This document shows positions 33,928 to 64,000 of a DNA stretch of 64,000 nucleotides, in pieces. The notes below the pieces were generated by a model that worked only from the letters and a program-made list of their open reading frames with translations, was not told the origin of the DNA and searched no databases. Positions within the stretch are counted from its first letter, which is position 1, and each line of letters opens with the position of its first letter. Position numbers and translations under genes: made by a program. The DNA comes from Oscillatoria sp. SIO1A7 (GTDB lineage: Bacteria; Cyanobacteriota; Cyanobacteriia; Cyanobacteriales; Laspinemataceae), in assembly GCA_010672965.1 (NCBI GenBank), contig JAAHFN010000022.1, forward strand, positions 62,001-126,000, written 5' to 3'.

Positions 33928-34923
33928 ATGGATGCTAGCGAAATTCTGAAAAGGTATGAGGCAGGAGAAACGCAATTTAAAGGAGTTTCCCTGCGCAACG
34001 TTAATCTCATGGGTGCGGATTTGATTGATGTCAACCTCAAAGAAGCCGACCTTCAAGCGGCGAATTTAATGATGGCTTATCTGAGTCGGGTTAAATTCGG
34101 TCGCTCTAACCTGGCTAATGCAAAACTCTGTGGCGCGAATCTGAATCAAGCCGACCTCAGCGGTGCCAATCTCAGAGATGCAGACCTTCATGGTGCCACT
34201 CTGCAAGGAGCAAATCTTGCTAAGGCCAATTTGGCTTTGGCCAATTTGCTCGATGCCAATCTCATCGATACAGATATGCGCAATATTAATCTCAGCGGTG
34301 CCTGCCTCCGAGGAGCTTGTATGCGCGGTGCCAATTTGCGCTATGAAAGGCGAAATTACGAGCCAGTTAACTTGCGCGGTGCCGACTTGCGCGGTGCAGA
34401 TTTGCGAGGAGTGAACCTCAGCGGTGCGGATTTGACCCGAGCGAATTTAGCAGGAGCAAATATGAAGGAAGCTAACCTACGCGCTGCCAATCTGACTCAG
34501 GCTAAGATAAGCGATGCCAAGCTGGAAGATGCCTCGCTGATAGAAGCAAATTTGACGGAAGCTAATTTCGTAGGGGCTTTTCTCAAGAATGCGAGGCTGG
34601 AACGAGCAAATCTGAGCGATGCAGATTTGACGGCTGTTGATATGTGCGGTGCTTTGTTGGTTGATGCTAAGCTGGCTAAAGCGAATTTGCATCGAGCCGA
34701 TCTAAATAATGCCAACCTAATGAGGGCGAACGTGACTCGCTCCAATCTGAGCGAAGCAAATCTTGAAGGTGCCAATCTGATGTATGTTTACTTTACCAGA
34801 ACAGACCTTCAAGGTGCGAATCTCAGCAATGCCAATTTGACTAATGCCGAAATGAGTACGGCTAATCTATTGGATGCGAATTTGCAAGGAGCGACTATGC
34901 CCGATGGAGAGGTTCAAAGCTGA
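33928..34923 (+). CDS. Pentapeptide-repeat protein
   Basis: The 331 residues are almost wholly A(D/N)LxX repeats (for example ANLNQADLSGANLRDADLHG), which fold as a right-handed quadrilateral beta-helix. A short N-terminal cap (MDASEILKRYEAGETQFKGV) precedes them. One interruption (ANLRYERRNYEPVNLRGADL, about residue 137) bulges from the helix. There is no signal peptide or membrane helix, so it is cytoplasmic. Pentapeptide proteins can mimic DNA (gyrase protection) or assist assembly; cyanobacteria have dozens and nothing here points to a specific role. Confidence 0.93.
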   Translation: MDASEILKRYEAGETQFKGVSLRNVNLMGADLIDVNLKEADLQAANLMMAYLSRVKFGRSNLANAKLCGANLNQADLSGANLRDADLHGATLQGANLAKANLALANLLDANLIDTDMRNINLSGACLRGACMRGANLRYERRNYEPVNLRGADLRGADLRGVNLSGADLTRANLAGANMKEANLRAANLTQAKISDAKLEDASLIEANLTEANFVGAFLKNARLERANLSDADLTAVDMCGALLVDAKLAKANLHRADLNNANLMRANVTRSNLSEANLEGANLMYVYFTRTDLQGANLSNANLTNAEMSTANLLDANLQGATMPDGEVQS

Positions 34924-35092
34924 CTGGTACTAAATTTGCTGCGCAAGTCTCTTACTGCTATGATTAACAGCCGAGTTTGTGGCCCGCAGCAAATCTATGG
35001 CCTGGGGTCGGGTAAGGGACTCTACCTCGACCTTGGCCAGTGGCTATATATAAGTGCAGAAAGTGGAGAAATTTCAGAAAATGCCTCGAAGG

Positions 35093-35121
35093 TTGAAATT
35101 CTAGCAAAATTCTGCTACTAT
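35093..35121 (+). promoter_or_regulatory. Promoter of RNA locus 1
   Basis: TTGAAA (35093-35098), a 17-base spacer and TACTAT (35116-35121). The spacer TTCTAGCAAAATTCTGC resembles the one at locus 2 (63490-63506). Confidence 0.7.
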
Positions 35122-35127
35122 AGCCTT

Positions 35128-35405
35128 ATAGCCTAAAAGAGGGCAAAAAAAAGGGCCACGCCATAATAACGCGACCCTTATCTCAACTAACAAGTCAACT
35201 GTAAGGAAGGAGGTGTTTTCACTCAAAAAATTTCTCTCTGAAAAACCCACGCTGTTAGGGGTAAGCCTTGGACACTGGGCAAATTGGCCATTGGCTTACT
35301 CCAGTAGCAGCGCCAGGTTGGAAGCCCAGCCCAAAATACCGCTGATAGTCGGCAAAGCGGCAGCGGGTTGGCTTCCTATGGGAGAAATTCACTCTAGTTT
35401 TCACC
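35128..35405 (+). ncRNA. Candidate structured RNA, copy 1 (unknown family)
   Basis: It shares ordered blocks with 63519-63811: GGGCCACG, ATAAC.GCGACCC, AAGGAGGT (35207-35214), a 10-bp closing stem (35229-35238 with 35380-35389, one G-U), GGGGTAAGCCTTGGAC, and GGGAGAAATTC.CTC. Inside the closing stem, 35250-35254 pairs with 35361-35365, AACC at 35244 pairs with GGTT at 35366, and 35258-35267 pairs with 35293-35302 (10 bp, one G-U). A 67-codon frame through copy 1 is not kept in copy 2, so protein coding is unlikely. No known RNA class is recognised. Confidence 0.6.
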
Positions 35406-35449
35406 ACTGGCCTTAATAAGGAGGCAGAAGGGCTTAGGAGCAGAGGAGC

Positions 35450-35640
35450 AGAGTAGGGGCAACGTTCAACCCTTCGCTTACTTCGCTTACTGCGCTCTCT
35501 GCGCTCCCTGCGCTCCCTGCGTGGCACTCGCAGGGGCTCGCTTGCACGCGCTCGCTCGCAGGGGCTCGCTTGCACGCGCTCGCACGCGAATGCGCGTCGC
35601 GATCGGAGCGCGACGCGCCAATTCGGCTATTTGCACGCCC
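35450..35640. repeat. GCGCTCCCTGC and CGCTCGCACGCG low-complexity arrays
   Basis: Short tandem and overlapping repeats (TGCGCTCCC twice, CTCGCTTGCACGCG twice). They lie just after RNA locus 1. No coding role. Confidence 0.7.
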
Positions 35641-35768
35641 GGTGGAAACTAGGGGGTAGCACCTCCAAGCTTTTTGTAGATTCTACAACGACTGGCTTTT
35701 GGATGCGCTCCCATGCCGATGGAGGGCTAAGGACCCTGTGCGAAATTAAAAAGTCAAAAGTCAAAAGT

Positions 35769-36149: not shown

Positions 36150-36269
36150 TACTTTTTAATTGCAGTAAGCCTAAACTTTGAACGGAAAAAAACTAATTTT
36201 TTTTTAGGTTCTAACTTATCAGAGCCCCCAAACGCCCGTAATTTAAAAATCATGGCCGATAGCGAGATC

Positions 36270-36344: not shown

Positions 36345-37235
36345 ATGACTCAGACTGCTCAGACTGTTATGCCCTTGTCGGAAGTTGCTCCAGACAGAGC
36401 GACGGAAAAATTCACGTTCCAAGAGTACCTTTTTTACGAAGGAAAGCCGGGAGAGCCGGACGTTCGCTATGAATTAGTGAGGGGCCAATTAGTACCAATG
36501 CCAGCACAAAGCCATCTACATACAAATATAGCCAAATTTTTGGCCTATAAATTGCAGCGCCACTTTGCTGCCGAAAATCTGGACTTAGTTGCAAATCCCC
36601 TAGGGACGGGAGTCAGAACCGAAGAAGCTTCCTCTCGAATTCCCGATTTGGTAGTTTGCAGCCAAAGCGTTTGGGAAGAAGTGATTCCTCGGGCCGGAGC
36701 GGGGGTGCTGGATTTTCCCGAAAAACCAAATCTAGTTATAGAAATAGTCAGTACCAATCGCCGGGACGACTATGTAACTAAAAGGAACGAGTATGAAAAT
36801 GCCGAGATTCCCGAGTATTGGATTGTAGATCCGAAAAAAAATCGAGTCCGTATCTACAGTCTGACGGGGGAAGAGGGATATAGCTTCGTTGACTTTACCA
36901 AGGGAGCGCAAATTGTCTCCAGTCAGTTTCCCAATCTGGTTTTGTCAGTAGAGGAAATGCTATCTCCACCAATTTTAGAGCTGTTAATTAAGGAGGAACT
37001 AGCCCAATCCCAGGAATTCCAGCAACGCGCCGAAGCGGAACATCAGCGCGCCGAAGCAGAACATCAGCGCGCCGAAGCAGAACATCAGCGCGCCGAAGCA
37101 GAACATCAGCGCGCCGAGGAGCAACAGCGACAGGCTGAAGCAGAACGGCAACGCGCCGAGGAGCAACAGCAGCGCGCCGAAAAATTAGCCCAGCGCTTGC
37201 TAGAAATGGGAGTTAACCCGGAGGAAATCGATTGA
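36345..37235 (+). CDS. Uma2-family (DUF820) putative endonuclease
   Basis: The 296-residue protein has the PD-(D/E)xK-type Uma2 domain (about 20-215): YELVRGQLVPMPAQSHLHTN, RIPDLVVC (catalytic Asp), and NLVIEIVST with a later K and EYWIVDPKKNRVRIY. Cyanobacteria carry many such genes; the natural role is unknown, perhaps mobile-element related. The C-terminal 80 residues are a charged coiled coil made of RAEAEHQ heptads, encoded by nearly identical 21-bp DNA repeats (37030-37115). ATG at 36345 gives an N-terminus consistent with the family. It is monocistronic. Confidence 0.9.
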   Translation: MTQTAQTVMPLSEVAPDRATEKFTFQEYLFYEGKPGEPDVRYELVRGQLVPMPAQSHLHTNIAKFLAYKLQRHFAAENLDLVANPLGTGVRTEEASSRIPDLVVCSQSVWEEVIPRAGAGVLDFPEKPNLVIEIVSTNRRDDYVTKRNEYENAEIPEYWIVDPKKNRVRIYSLTGEEGYSFVDFTKGAQIVSSQFPNLVLSVEEMLSPPILELLIKEELAQSQEFQQRAEAEHQRAEAEHQRAEAEHQRAEAEHQRAEEQQRQAEAERQRAEEQQQRAEKLAQRLLEMGVNPEEID

Positions 37236-38639: not shown

Positions 38640-40871
38640 TTGAAACGCCTGCAAGAATTGCTGAAGCTTGGGCAGCGGGCGGCGATCGCAGCGGTAGAGG
38701 GGATGGGCGGCGCGGGCAAAACCGAACTGGCAATCCAATATGCAACGCGCCACAAAAAAGATTACCCCGGCGGGATTTGTTGGTTCGGCGTCAGAGAGAC
38801 GAATCCCGCCCCTCAAATATTGGCCTTTGCCCAAAGCAAATTAAATCTGGAAGTGCCCCAAAAGCTGGCGGGCAGGCGACTCGAACTGGACGAACAAGTG
38901 TCCTGGTGCTGGGAAAACTGGCGACCTTCCGAGGGTTTGGTGCTGGTAGTCCTAGACGACCTCACGGATTTGGCCGACTGTCTGCCCTTTCTGCCCAAAC
39001 CCGAACAGACGCGCTTCCGAGTTTTGATAACCAGCCGCCTGCGCAACCTCGACCCGGGTTTTATCCAAGAAATTCCCCTCGATGTTCTCTCCGAGGATGC
39101 AGCCCTGAAACTGCTGAAAGCTCTGGTGGGGCAGGAGCGAGTGGAGCCAGAAATCGAGAAAGCTAAAGAGTTATGTAAGTGGCTGGGCTATTTGCCCTTG
39201 GCCTTGCAGTTGGTGGGGAGCTATTTGACGAAAAAACCCCATTGGTCTTTGGCGAAAATGCTCGAACGGCTCCAAGCCCAAAAGCTCGACAGCGAAGCCC
39301 TCGACCTAACGGAGGCACAGAAGCGGCGAAGTCTGAGTACCGCAGAACGCGGGGTGAGAGCGGCTTTTCAATTAAGCTGGCTTGAGCTGGAGCCCGCGAC
39401 CCAGGAAGTAGCTCGGCTGTCGAGCTTGTTGGCAGGAGACATTTTTCTCTGGGAATGGATCGAGTCGGCGGCAGAAAAGCTAGATTGGCCAGATTCTATA
39501 GATGTAGATTCGGTAACGGAAGATGCTATTGACCAACTCTACGAGCGTCATTTACTACAGCGAGTGCAGGCAGCCGAACCAGCTTTTAAATTTCATCCCT
39601 TAATCCGGCAGTTTCTGCAAGAAAAATTACCAGAATCAGCCCAAGCCAACAACTTCAAAAAGGCTGTGGCAGCAACTATGGCCGCAGTTGCCCGGGAAAT
39701 TCCCCAAGACTCTACTCGGCAGCAAATCGAATCCTTGCGAATTGCCATACCTCATTTAGAAGAAGTAGCTCAAAACCTAACTGATGCGATCGGCGACAAC
39801 GACTTAATCGCGCCTTTTGCGGGATTGGGTCGCTTCTACGAAGGTCAGGGGTTGTACGGCTTAGCCGTACCTTGGCGTCAGCAATGTTTATCGACAGCGC
39901 GAGACCGCTTGGGAGATGACCATCTCGACGTGGCAGCCAGCCTACATAATCTGGCATTTATCTACAAATATCAAGGACGCTACGCGGAAGCGGAAACTCT
40001 GTATCTGCAAGCTTTGAAATTGATAAAAAGCCTCCTGGGTTCCGACCATCCCAATGTGGCAATTAGCCTCAACAATCTGGCATTACTCTACGAATCTCAA
40101 GGACGCTACGAGGAAGCAGAAACCTTGGAAATGCAAGCTTTGGGTTTGAGAAAAAAACTGCTGGGTTCCGACCATCCCGATGTGGCAACTAGCCTCAACA
40201 ATCTGGCAGCACTCTACGAAGCTCAAGGACGCTATGCCGAAGCAGAATCCCTGTATCTGCAAGCTTTGAAGTTGAGAAAAAAAATCCTGGGTTCCGACCA
40301 TCCCGACGTGGCAACTAGCCTCAACAATCTGGCAGTATTCTACGAAGCTCTAGGACGCTATGCCGAAGCAGAATCCCTGTATCTGCAAGCTTTAGATTTG
40401 ACAAAAAAACTGCTGGGTTCCGACCATCCCGACGTGGCAACTAGCCTCAACAATCTGGCAGCACTCTACGAAGCTCTAGGACGCTATGCCGAAGCAGAAT
40501 CCCTGTATCTGCAAGCTTTAGATTTGACAAAAAAACTGCTGTTTTCAGACCATCCCGATGTGGCAATTAGCCTCAACAACCTGGCATTTCTCTACTCATT
40601 TCAAGGACGCTATGCGGAAGCGGAAAGTCTGTATCTGCAAGCTTTGGACTTGAGCGCGAGGGTTTTAGGAGAAGACCATCCTAAGACGGTGACTATCCAA
40701 GAAAATTTGGCCTATTTCCGGAATAATTTTAAGGCTAGCAATTCTTGGCCGATAAAATTGACAAAAATACTTCGCCCAGTAATATTGATACCTTTGGCTC
40801 TGCTCAGGATATTGTTGCTTTTGCCCTGGAGGTTGGCGAAAAAATTGCGGGCTTTGGTGCGGCGTCGGTAG
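38640..40871 (+). CDS. STAND NTPase (NB-ARC) with TPR repeats and hydrophobic tail, 3' part of split gene
   Basis: NB-ARC marks are Walker A (EGMGGAGKTE), Walker B (LVVLDDL), sensor (RVLITSR) and the GLPL-like LGYLPLALQLVGSYL; a winged-helix region follows to about 330. Residues about 425-680 are six 42-residue TPR_12 units (DHPDVATSLNNLAALYEAQG type), encoded by nearly identical 126-bp DNA repeats. The last 35 residues are hydrophobic then basic (ILIPLALLRILLLLPWRLAK), a possible membrane anchor. The listed TTG is formal: the true domain start FVGREQEL lies before it, in frame with 38145. Relatives act as NLR-like sensors in signalling or defence. Confidence 0.85.
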   Translation: MKRLQELLKLGQRAAIAAVEGMGGAGKTELAIQYATRHKKDYPGGICWFGVRETNPAPQILAFAQSKLNLEVPQKLAGRRLELDEQVSWCWENWRPSEGLVLVVLDDLTDLADCLPFLPKPEQTRFRVLITSRLRNLDPGFIQEIPLDVLSEDAALKLLKALVGQERVEPEIEKAKELCKWLGYLPLALQLVGSYLTKKPHWSLAKMLERLQAQKLDSEALDLTEAQKRRSLSTAERGVRAAFQLSWLELEPATQEVARLSSLLAGDIFLWEWIESAAEKLDWPDSIDVDSVTEDAIDQLYERHLLQRVQAAEPAFKFHPLIRQFLQEKLPESAQANNFKKAVAATMAAVAREIPQDSTRQQIESLRIAIPHLEEVAQNLTDAIGDNDLIAPFAGLGRFYEGQGLYGLAVPWRQQCLSTARDRLGDDHLDVAASLHNLAFIYKYQGRYAEAETLYLQALKLIKSLLGSDHPNVAISLNNLALLYESQGRYEEAETLEMQALGLRKKLLGSDHPDVATSLNNLAALYEAQGRYAEAESLYLQALKLRKKILGSDHPDVATSLNNLAVFYEALGRYAEAESLYLQALDLTKKLLGSDHPDVATSLNNLAALYEALGRYAEAESLYLQALDLTKKLLFSDHPDVAISLNNLAFLYSFQGRYAEAESLYLQALDLSARVLGEDHPKTVTIQENLAYFRNNFKASNSWPIKLTKILRPVILIPLALLRILLLLPWRLAKKLRALVRRR

Positions 40872-62890: not shown

Positions 62891-63151
62891 TCAATTTTTA
62901 TAAACATTTTTTCGATGCTTACAATGAAGCAATAACACCAACAATTTTTTATCATTGATTTCGTAGCGCACGCGATAATCACCAATGCGGAGCCGATATT
63001 CATTGTCACAGCCTTTTAACTTTACAGTTCCGGGAGGCCGAGGGTCTTCACCCAATGGCGTTATTTTTTCAATAATTCGCTCTTGGATATCTTCGGGCAG
63101 ACTATCTAGTTGCTTTTGCAACGGTTTCGGAACTATTACGGTATAAGTTAT
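62891..63151 (-). pseudogene. RelE/ParE-type toxin with lost start codon
   Basis: The protein TYTVIVPKPLQKQLDSLPED IQERIIEKI, with LGEDPRPPGTVKLKG and YRLRIGDYRVRYEINDKKLL, is a full RelE/ParE-superfamily mRNA interferase or gyrase toxin of about 86 residues. The expected ATG is ATA (63151-63149). An in-frame ATG at 63238 would add 29 residues that look non-native. The preceding antitoxin is truncated, so the module is probably silent. Confidence 0.8.
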
Positions 63152-63218
63152 GGAGTTTTGTTCTTCCGAGAAGCAATATATCGATCTAGGGTTTGATAGT
63201 CTCCTGCTTGGTAGGCAG
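63148..63218 (-). pseudogene. C-terminus of the cognate antitoxin
   Basis: In the overlapping frame the sequence reads TAYQAGDYQTLDRYIASRKNKTP and stops at TAA (63150-63148). It is the usual antitoxin ending upstream of RelE-type toxins. Immediately above it is ATATCAAATCCG, the terminus of the dispersed element, which marks the breakpoint where the rest of the gene was lost. Confidence 0.7.
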
Positions 63219-63483
63219 TACGGATTTGATATTAACAACAGCTAAAACAACGCGGAAAGTAGCCTAAATTATCAACTACAGTGGATCCTAGCTGTATGAA
63301 TTAGTCAAAAGCTATATTTTATAAGGGGCCAAATACTCGGAGACCAAGGCCAATATTTTTAGTAAAGCGCAAATCTGTTGGCCGGGGATCCAGCTATCGC
63401 GACTGAAGCTGTAATATTAGGCTATAGGACAATGCAGAAACTGCGCGAAGTGCAGAAGGCGCAAAAAATTTTTCTATTTAATG

Positions 63484-63512
63484 TTGACATTCGAGAAAAA
63501 CGATGCTAAGAT
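63484..63512 (+). promoter_or_regulatory. Promoter of RNA locus 2
   Basis: TTGACA (63484-63489), 17-base spacer, TAAGAT (63507-63512). Same spacing as at 35093-35121, and the spacer also ends in TGC. Confidence 0.75.
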
Positions 63513-63518
63513 GGATTT

Positions 63519-63811
63519 ATAGCTCCCGAAGCTTTGGGGTGCATAAATAGGGGCCACGGCTAATAACCGCGACCCATTAGAACTGGAAACATCTGTCAAA
63601 ACTAGCAAGGAGGTATTCTCAGTCAAACAATTTCTCCCTTAAAAAACCGGCCTGCGGCGGGGTAAGCCTTGGACTCTCCGGCAAGTCGGCCGTTGGCACG
63701 CCCCCAATCGCAGCGTCCGGCCGGGAAGATATCCCACCCAATAGCCCGCCGATTTCGCACCCTGTCGCGAGCAGCGGGTGGGTTTTCCTTGGGAGAAATT
63801 CGCTCTTGTTT
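63519..63811 (+). ncRNA. Candidate structured RNA, copy 2 (unknown family)
   Basis: The shared blocks match copy 1 in order. The 10-bp closing stem is perfect here (63629-63638 with 63791-63800), and the distance from AAGGAGGT (63607-63614) to the stem is 15 bases at both loci. The inner hairpin arms (63659-63668 and 63695-63704) keep 8 of 10 pairs. No frame is open through the region: the frame corresponding to copy 1 meets TAA after CCT at 63640. The RNA end is a guess from GAGAAATTCGCTCTTGTTTTT at 63793-63813. Confidence 0.6.
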
Positions 63812-63830: not shown

Positions 63831-63982
63831 ATATCAAATCCGCTTCCGCTGTTCCATGAATACCCCCATAAATACCTTTGGGGCAATTCCCAAGCGAGCG
63901 ATACGACCCCGGCCGCCCAAGACCAACCGGGGCGCTTCCGGGGGACCCCTAGAAACTGTGGCTGTTTAACCGGATTTGATAT
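63831..63982. mobile_element. ATATCAAATCCG inverted-repeat element, copy 3
   Basis: It runs from ATATCAAATCCG to CGGATTTGATAT, 152 bases, in reverse orientation to copies 1 and 2. The window ends in GAAACCGGGTTT, half of the AAACCCGG palindrome. Confidence 0.83.
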
Positions 63983-64000
63983 AACTCAGAAACCGGGTTT

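Follow-up and report, generated by a model that had tools for sequence, protein, structure and literature searches.

A multicopy family of predicted structured RNA genes, probably spread as a non-autonomous unit, in the genome of Oscillatoria sp. SIO1A7

We found that two similar stretches of the window (the whole 64,000-nucleotide stretch of Oscillatoria sp. SIO1A7 DNA analyzed here) are members of a family of predicted RNA genes, previously undescribed, which combine a complex fold with a promoter of their own; a covariance-model search of the contigs identified at least 118 homologous copies in the 9.1-Mb genome. Comparison of these copies suggests that they are probably structured noncoding RNA genes, dispersed through the genome as a non-autonomous unit (mobile or duplicating), with selection maintaining their fold. 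Each copy would consist of its predicted promoter, two hairpins (P1 and P2), a tether rich in A, and a domain with P3, P4, and P5/P6; in longer copies, a second domain, in which P7 surrounds a hypervariable hairpin, would follow the first, and helix P0 would close both. Among the systems compared, the family would in its way of working come closest to a large structured RNA that a non-autonomous repeat carries.

The two stretches, 28 kb apart and each with a sigma70-type promoter, an AAGGAGGT motif, and a 10-bp closing stem, are both present as the preliminary description reported (Table 1); it saw these two copies only and missed the size of the family and the further extent of copy 1. Either copy used as a query against the genome (9.08 Mb in 182 contigs) gave 41 matches, and the first look yielded 125–130 candidates. 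From 24 copies we built a covariance model that represents the core with 243 positions and 57 pairs. It gave 128 matches in the same genome, about 118 of them strong and nearly all full length; these strong copies were fetched and aligned. Their likeness is far above chance, with model scores of up to 237 bits, and pairwise identity between cores has a median of 72% (range 54–100%). The true copy number is probably higher than 118, because several copies lie at contig ends. In a tandem array (L160, C96:28493-33696), at least four complete RNA genes follow each other head-to-tail with a unit of about 481 nt.

The core behaves as a structured RNA in that compensatory changes at paired columns exceed both shuffled and slid controls. 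In the model-fitted alignment of 104 copies, which leans to the fitted structure (most copies were not used in model building, and the slid controls use the same alignment), 89.4% of cells pair, as compared to 42–58% when partners are slid by 1–3 columns. Two-sided changes occur at 31 of the 57 pairs (17.6 ± 2.2 in shuffles) and in 150 cells, against 46 ± 6 in shuffles and at most 67 in slid controls; not one of 500 shuffles reached any of the five measures. RNAalifold gave closely similar arms when three subgroups were folded separately and a poor structure on the whole-family alignment, signal from subfamilies overwhelmed a G-test with APC, and tree-counted events on the sequence alignment were only modestly enriched (9/66 versus 1507/40120); we therefore relied on the model-based count and on partner-swap tests. 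The unconstrained MFE structure of copy 1 (35130-35667) yields P2, P0, P3, P4, P5/P6, and P7, with a z of −4.6 that no shuffle equaled, and the stability of copy 2 alone is not unusual (z −1.15). The nested pairs described earlier inside the domain correspond to arms present in both copies. The distance from AAGGAGGT to the closing stem, said to be exactly 15 bases in both, is indeed equal in the two copies, but it is 14 nt and is not constant across the family. With a negative Rfam search of the window and strong covariation over 104 copies, the proposal of a new structured RNA is supported.

A sigma70-type promoter with an extended −10 element stands at a fixed distance before P2 in 107 of the 118 copies (17-bp spacing in 102), as compared to 22 matches among 341 stretches in a control scan; in the two window copies the promoter reads TTGAAA-17-TACTAT and TTGACA-17-TAAGAT. 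Further upstream, the motif AAATCT[AG][TC][TG]GG occurs in 20 of 118 upstream regions and CAAATCTGT in 22 of 118, each against 0 of 113 in the control. We found no reading frame conserved among the copies: core lengths are spread evenly modulo 3 (41/41/36), and the ORFs over the core differ from copy to copy. Neither a preserved frame nor an Rfam match, the two outcomes that the preliminary description had named as telling against an RNA of this kind, was seen. A role of the A-rich linker as a guide was not supported, since its 33 matches elsewhere were no clear excess over 20 in the control.

Table 1. Positions of predicted features of the two RNA copies in the window
Copy	Feature	Position	Strand	Basis or remark
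1	Conserved block upstream of promoter (AAATCTATGG type)	34979..35007	+	Alignments and motif count
1	Sigma70-type promoter	35093..35121	+	TTGAAA-17-TACTAT, extended −10 TG; arrangement common to 107/118 copies
1	−35 element TTGAAA	35093-35098	+	Followed by 17 bp and extended −10 TGCTACTAT (TACTAT 35116-35121)
1	Hairpin P1	35130..35144	+	Hairpin; sequence variable among copies
1	Hairpin P2 (GGGCCACG..CGCGACCC)	35153..35177	+	Most conserved block; alignment, covariance model
1	A-rich variable linker	35178..35206	+	A content 46%; length 20-31 nt (81 copies)
1	AAGGAGGT	35207-35214	+	
1	Long-range helix P0, 5' strand (AAGGAGGTG)	35207..35215	+	Beats 20,000 swaps; present in unconstrained MFE
1	Closing stem P3, 5' strand	35229..35238	+	Two-sided changes at 7/10 pairs
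1	Arm P4 (10-bp hairpin and basal stems)	35245..35318	+	Helices 3-7 of covariation count
1	Arm P5/P6	35320..35377	+	Helices 8-10 of covariation count
1	Closing stem P3, 3' strand	35380..35389	+	Covariation count
1	Helix P7 (35390-35410 with 35638-35655), closing hypervariable hairpin region	35390..35655	+	Swap test
1	Module II: CACCTCC 35660-35666 (P0 3' strand), U run, TAGATTCTACAACGAC	35657..35696	+	Present in 65/118 copies
1	Module III (conserved block that includes T9)	36173..36224	+	Present in 35/118 copies; possible 3' end of unit
2	Conserved upstream block CAAATCTGTTGGCC	63370..63391	+	Motif count
2	Promoter	63484..63512	+	−35 TTGACA 63484-63489, 17 bp, −10 TAAGAT 63507-63512
2	RNA core	63521..63801	+	Covariance-model match, 203 bits
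2	Hairpin P1	63521-63542	+	
2	Hairpin P2	63551-63575	+	
2	AAGGAGGT	63607-63614	+	
2	Closing stem P3	63629-63638 with 63791-63800	+	

The absence of the family outside its own genome is a statement about the genomes sampled. There was no DNA match in 38 related genomes, and the covariance model gave nothing convincing in 13 other genomes of the same family (150 candidates scored per genome) or in shallow samples that covered 391 genomes from the order and 386 from the phylum, with five candidates scored in each genome. The phage, plasmid, and viral collections searched held no match. A motif for the P2 hairpin, which matches 39 of the 118 own copies, was also sought in about 85,000 species genomes and gave five scattered hits, all in non-cyanobacteria, which we took as chance. 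One model hit of 27 bits before dnaK in another cyanobacterium is not a homolog (no Rfam match, and the key motif is not conserved in sister species), and two further hits elsewhere (22–28 bits) were likewise rejected on inspection. We found no description of the family in the open PMC literature, which is weak evidence, as most subscription papers lie outside that set.

The copies are intergenic and occur in all four orientations of flanking genes, slightly overrepresented between convergent genes (32 of 94), and no ORF is common to them at a constant flanking position. In most pairs the upstream likeness fades gradually, and the ends of most copies are not sharp. Two copies, L147 and L150, have clear boundaries, share 98.7% identity across about 1 kb, and lie in unrelated flanks. 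L147 occupies the place of the short loop seen in intact members of a palindrome family (AAATGCTCCC-loop-GGGAGCATTT): six of these (L190–L195) have loops of 4–21 nt, and a further one holds the whole RNA unit of L147 in its loop. This is the one clear case, as insertion into palindromes in general shows no excess over the control. We infer from these few cases that mobility is likely, because recent pairs are discrete units with unrelated flanks; no mobilizing enzyme was identified in the analysis.

Selection on individual copies was evaluated in 32 independent recent pairs, in which divergence was 5.4% and 11.5% at paired and unpaired sites, respectively, 7.9% in the promoter, and 15.5% in the outer part of the upstream flank. 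Paired positions thus diverge half as fast as unpaired ones, and individual copies appear constrained, since both paired sites and the promoter diverge less than unpaired sites and the flank. Part of the low divergence could stem from gene conversion, because the few changes at paired sites show no bias toward keeping the pair (36% do so, with 36.5% expected). In the model that we propose, the unit of upstream block, promoter, and RNA (about 0.5–1.3 kb) would spread within the lineage with the help of an enzyme acting in trans, and the RNA would be a folded scaffold, in an RNA–protein particle or an RNA assembly, needed by the element or its host; such a role is suggested by the purifying selection under which the fold and the promoter stay in individual copies. 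A bolder reading, somewhat less likely than not, is that the whole unit (an elaborately folded RNA gene, its promoter, and its hypervariable helical insert) multiplies through the genome and stays functional in more than 100 copies, that the RNA takes part in its own spread or persistence, and that it belongs to a class of large bacterial RNAs not known before. Few bacterial RNA classes of such size and intricacy are known, and these usually occur in one or a few copies per genome. Here, a single genome offers more than 100 natural variants for solving a structure that is kept through compensatory change, and the family poses the question of a selfish RNA-bearing element versus a host RNA whose gene dosage is very high.

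The second of these, a family of host RNA genes with a cellular job (e.g., a dosage-dependent or regulatory RNA) whose copies arose by ordinary duplication and recombination, is rather unlikely. Purifying selection on fold and promoter in single copies, with the promoter intact in 107 of 118, would suit it, as would the array of complete genes at C96 and the failure to find sharp ends and target-site duplications; even L147 and L150, with their clear boundaries, show no duplication. However, absence from the 13 same-family genomes searched argues that the RNA is not an essential ancestral one, and the copies are dispersed with unrelated flanks, one of them in a palindrome loop.

Like MITEs and other non-autonomous bacterial repeats, the family has a high copy number, an intergenic location, no ORF, restriction to a lineage, and recent copies at unrelated sites, and the genome is rich in repeats. 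It is nevertheless improbable that the family is a MITE-like DNA repeat without RNA function, in which the fold would represent DNA hairpins for transposition and the promoter would be incidental. The distance from promoter to fold is fixed in 107 of 118 copies, and the fold is a covarying multi-arm domain and not a set of terminal inverted repeats, which were not found, nor were precise ends with duplication. In addition, G–U wobbles occupy 473 cells on the RNA strand against 216 mirror-image A–C cells, an asymmetry that is moderate and comes from cells that are not independent.

Known RNA-bearing elements were compared as well. No Rfam family matched at its gathering score in the whole window or six further loci, and permissive E-values gave sub-threshold noise only; the test took in group I/II introns, 6S RNA, RNase P, tmRNA, OLE, ROOL, and GOLLD. 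GOLLD, ROOL, and OLE usually occur in a single or few copies per genome, and HEARO copies can occur without an ORF. The former three are, like the present family, long and elaborate noncoding RNAs, and their function is poorly understood (PMC12286853); the family differs from them in lacking an Rfam match, in its at least 118 copies in one genome, and in its restriction to one sampled lineage. HEARO (RF02033), the omegaRNA of IscB/IsrB, is likewise an element-borne structured RNA of about 300 nt, with a 343-nt example from the cyanobacterium Limnospira maxima (PMC12286853). In contrast to HEARO, the family has its own internal promoter, no nuclease gene was detected near its copies, and it shows no match in sequence or structure, including to the RF02033 covariance model. 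A remnant of such an element (HEARO/IscB omegaRNA, TnpB omegaRNA, or a group I/II intron) would also appear as a multicopy structured RNA in an element-like unit, but this origin is very improbable given the lack of an Rfam match and of an ORF common to the copies; that no match to RF02033 or PF14239 (RRXRR, IscB/IsrB) was seen in the whole genome adds weakly, as control genomes were also without matches.

The RNA appears to be longer than first proposed: copy 1 is predicted to run to at least 35667 and perhaps to 36224, so that the transcript of about 270 nt from 35128 suggested earlier is probably too short for it. In 65 of 118 copies, module II (about ACCTCCTTGC-TTTTT-CTAGATTCTACAACGACTTGC) follows the closing stem at a distance of 21–573 nt; about half of the copies are without it, most are without module III, and neither was found within 1.6–2 kb downstream of copy 2. 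Between the core and module II, the P7 strands pair with their own partners at a dG of −16.8, better than all 20,000 swaps (mean −13.5), while the region that they enclose is almost free to vary in sequence and tends to form hairpins (median z −2.2, below −3 in 16 of 50 copies). The strands of P0 (5' AGGAGG with 3' CCUCC) reach −18.9 kcal/mol with their own partners, again better than all 20,000 swaps (mean −17.8), and a shifted control gave no signal. Pairs flanking the invariant GGAGG follow the partner (340 versus 324 ± 4, reached by 0 of 2000 shuffles), and in one copy (L178) both strands have changed in a compensatory way, GCAGGGAGGU/ACCUCCCUGC (GCAGGGAGGT with ACCTCCCTGC). A second long-range pairing, of UUUUCACUC with GAGUGGAAA in module III, is complementary in the consensus and is not claimed, as swaps gave P 0.81.

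These comparisons point to AAGGAGGT as a structural strand of the predicted helix P0 and not a ribosome trap; P0 was invisible to the preliminary description because its partner in copy 1 lies about 450 nt further downstream. The reading given there, of a ribosome-titrating or anti-ribosome RNA acting through AAGGAGGT, is scarcely credible: the motif is strongly conserved after an A-rich linker, has no start codon at a useful distance, and is kept in copies without module II (which may reflect recent loss of the module), but 65 of 118 copies pair it with a downstream ACCUCCUUGC, its flanking positions track that partner, and L178 has compensated there, so that its conservation is explained by the helix and a decoy is not needed.

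The genome contains many other short dispersed repeats (e.g., TATATCAAATCCGGTTAA and CAGGACTTACGCAA), often beside or inside variable parts of the RNA units, as at 63850-63985 of the window and related loci. Repeats of the HIP1 type (GCGATCGC) are abundant, and the window also contains a PAP/fibrillin gene. Near copy 1 are genes for a pentapeptide-repeat protein (33928-34923), a Uma2-family putative endonuclease (36345-37235), and an NB-ARC/TPR protein (38640-40871), and a ParE-like toxin gene (62891-63238, minus strand) lies just upstream of copy 2.
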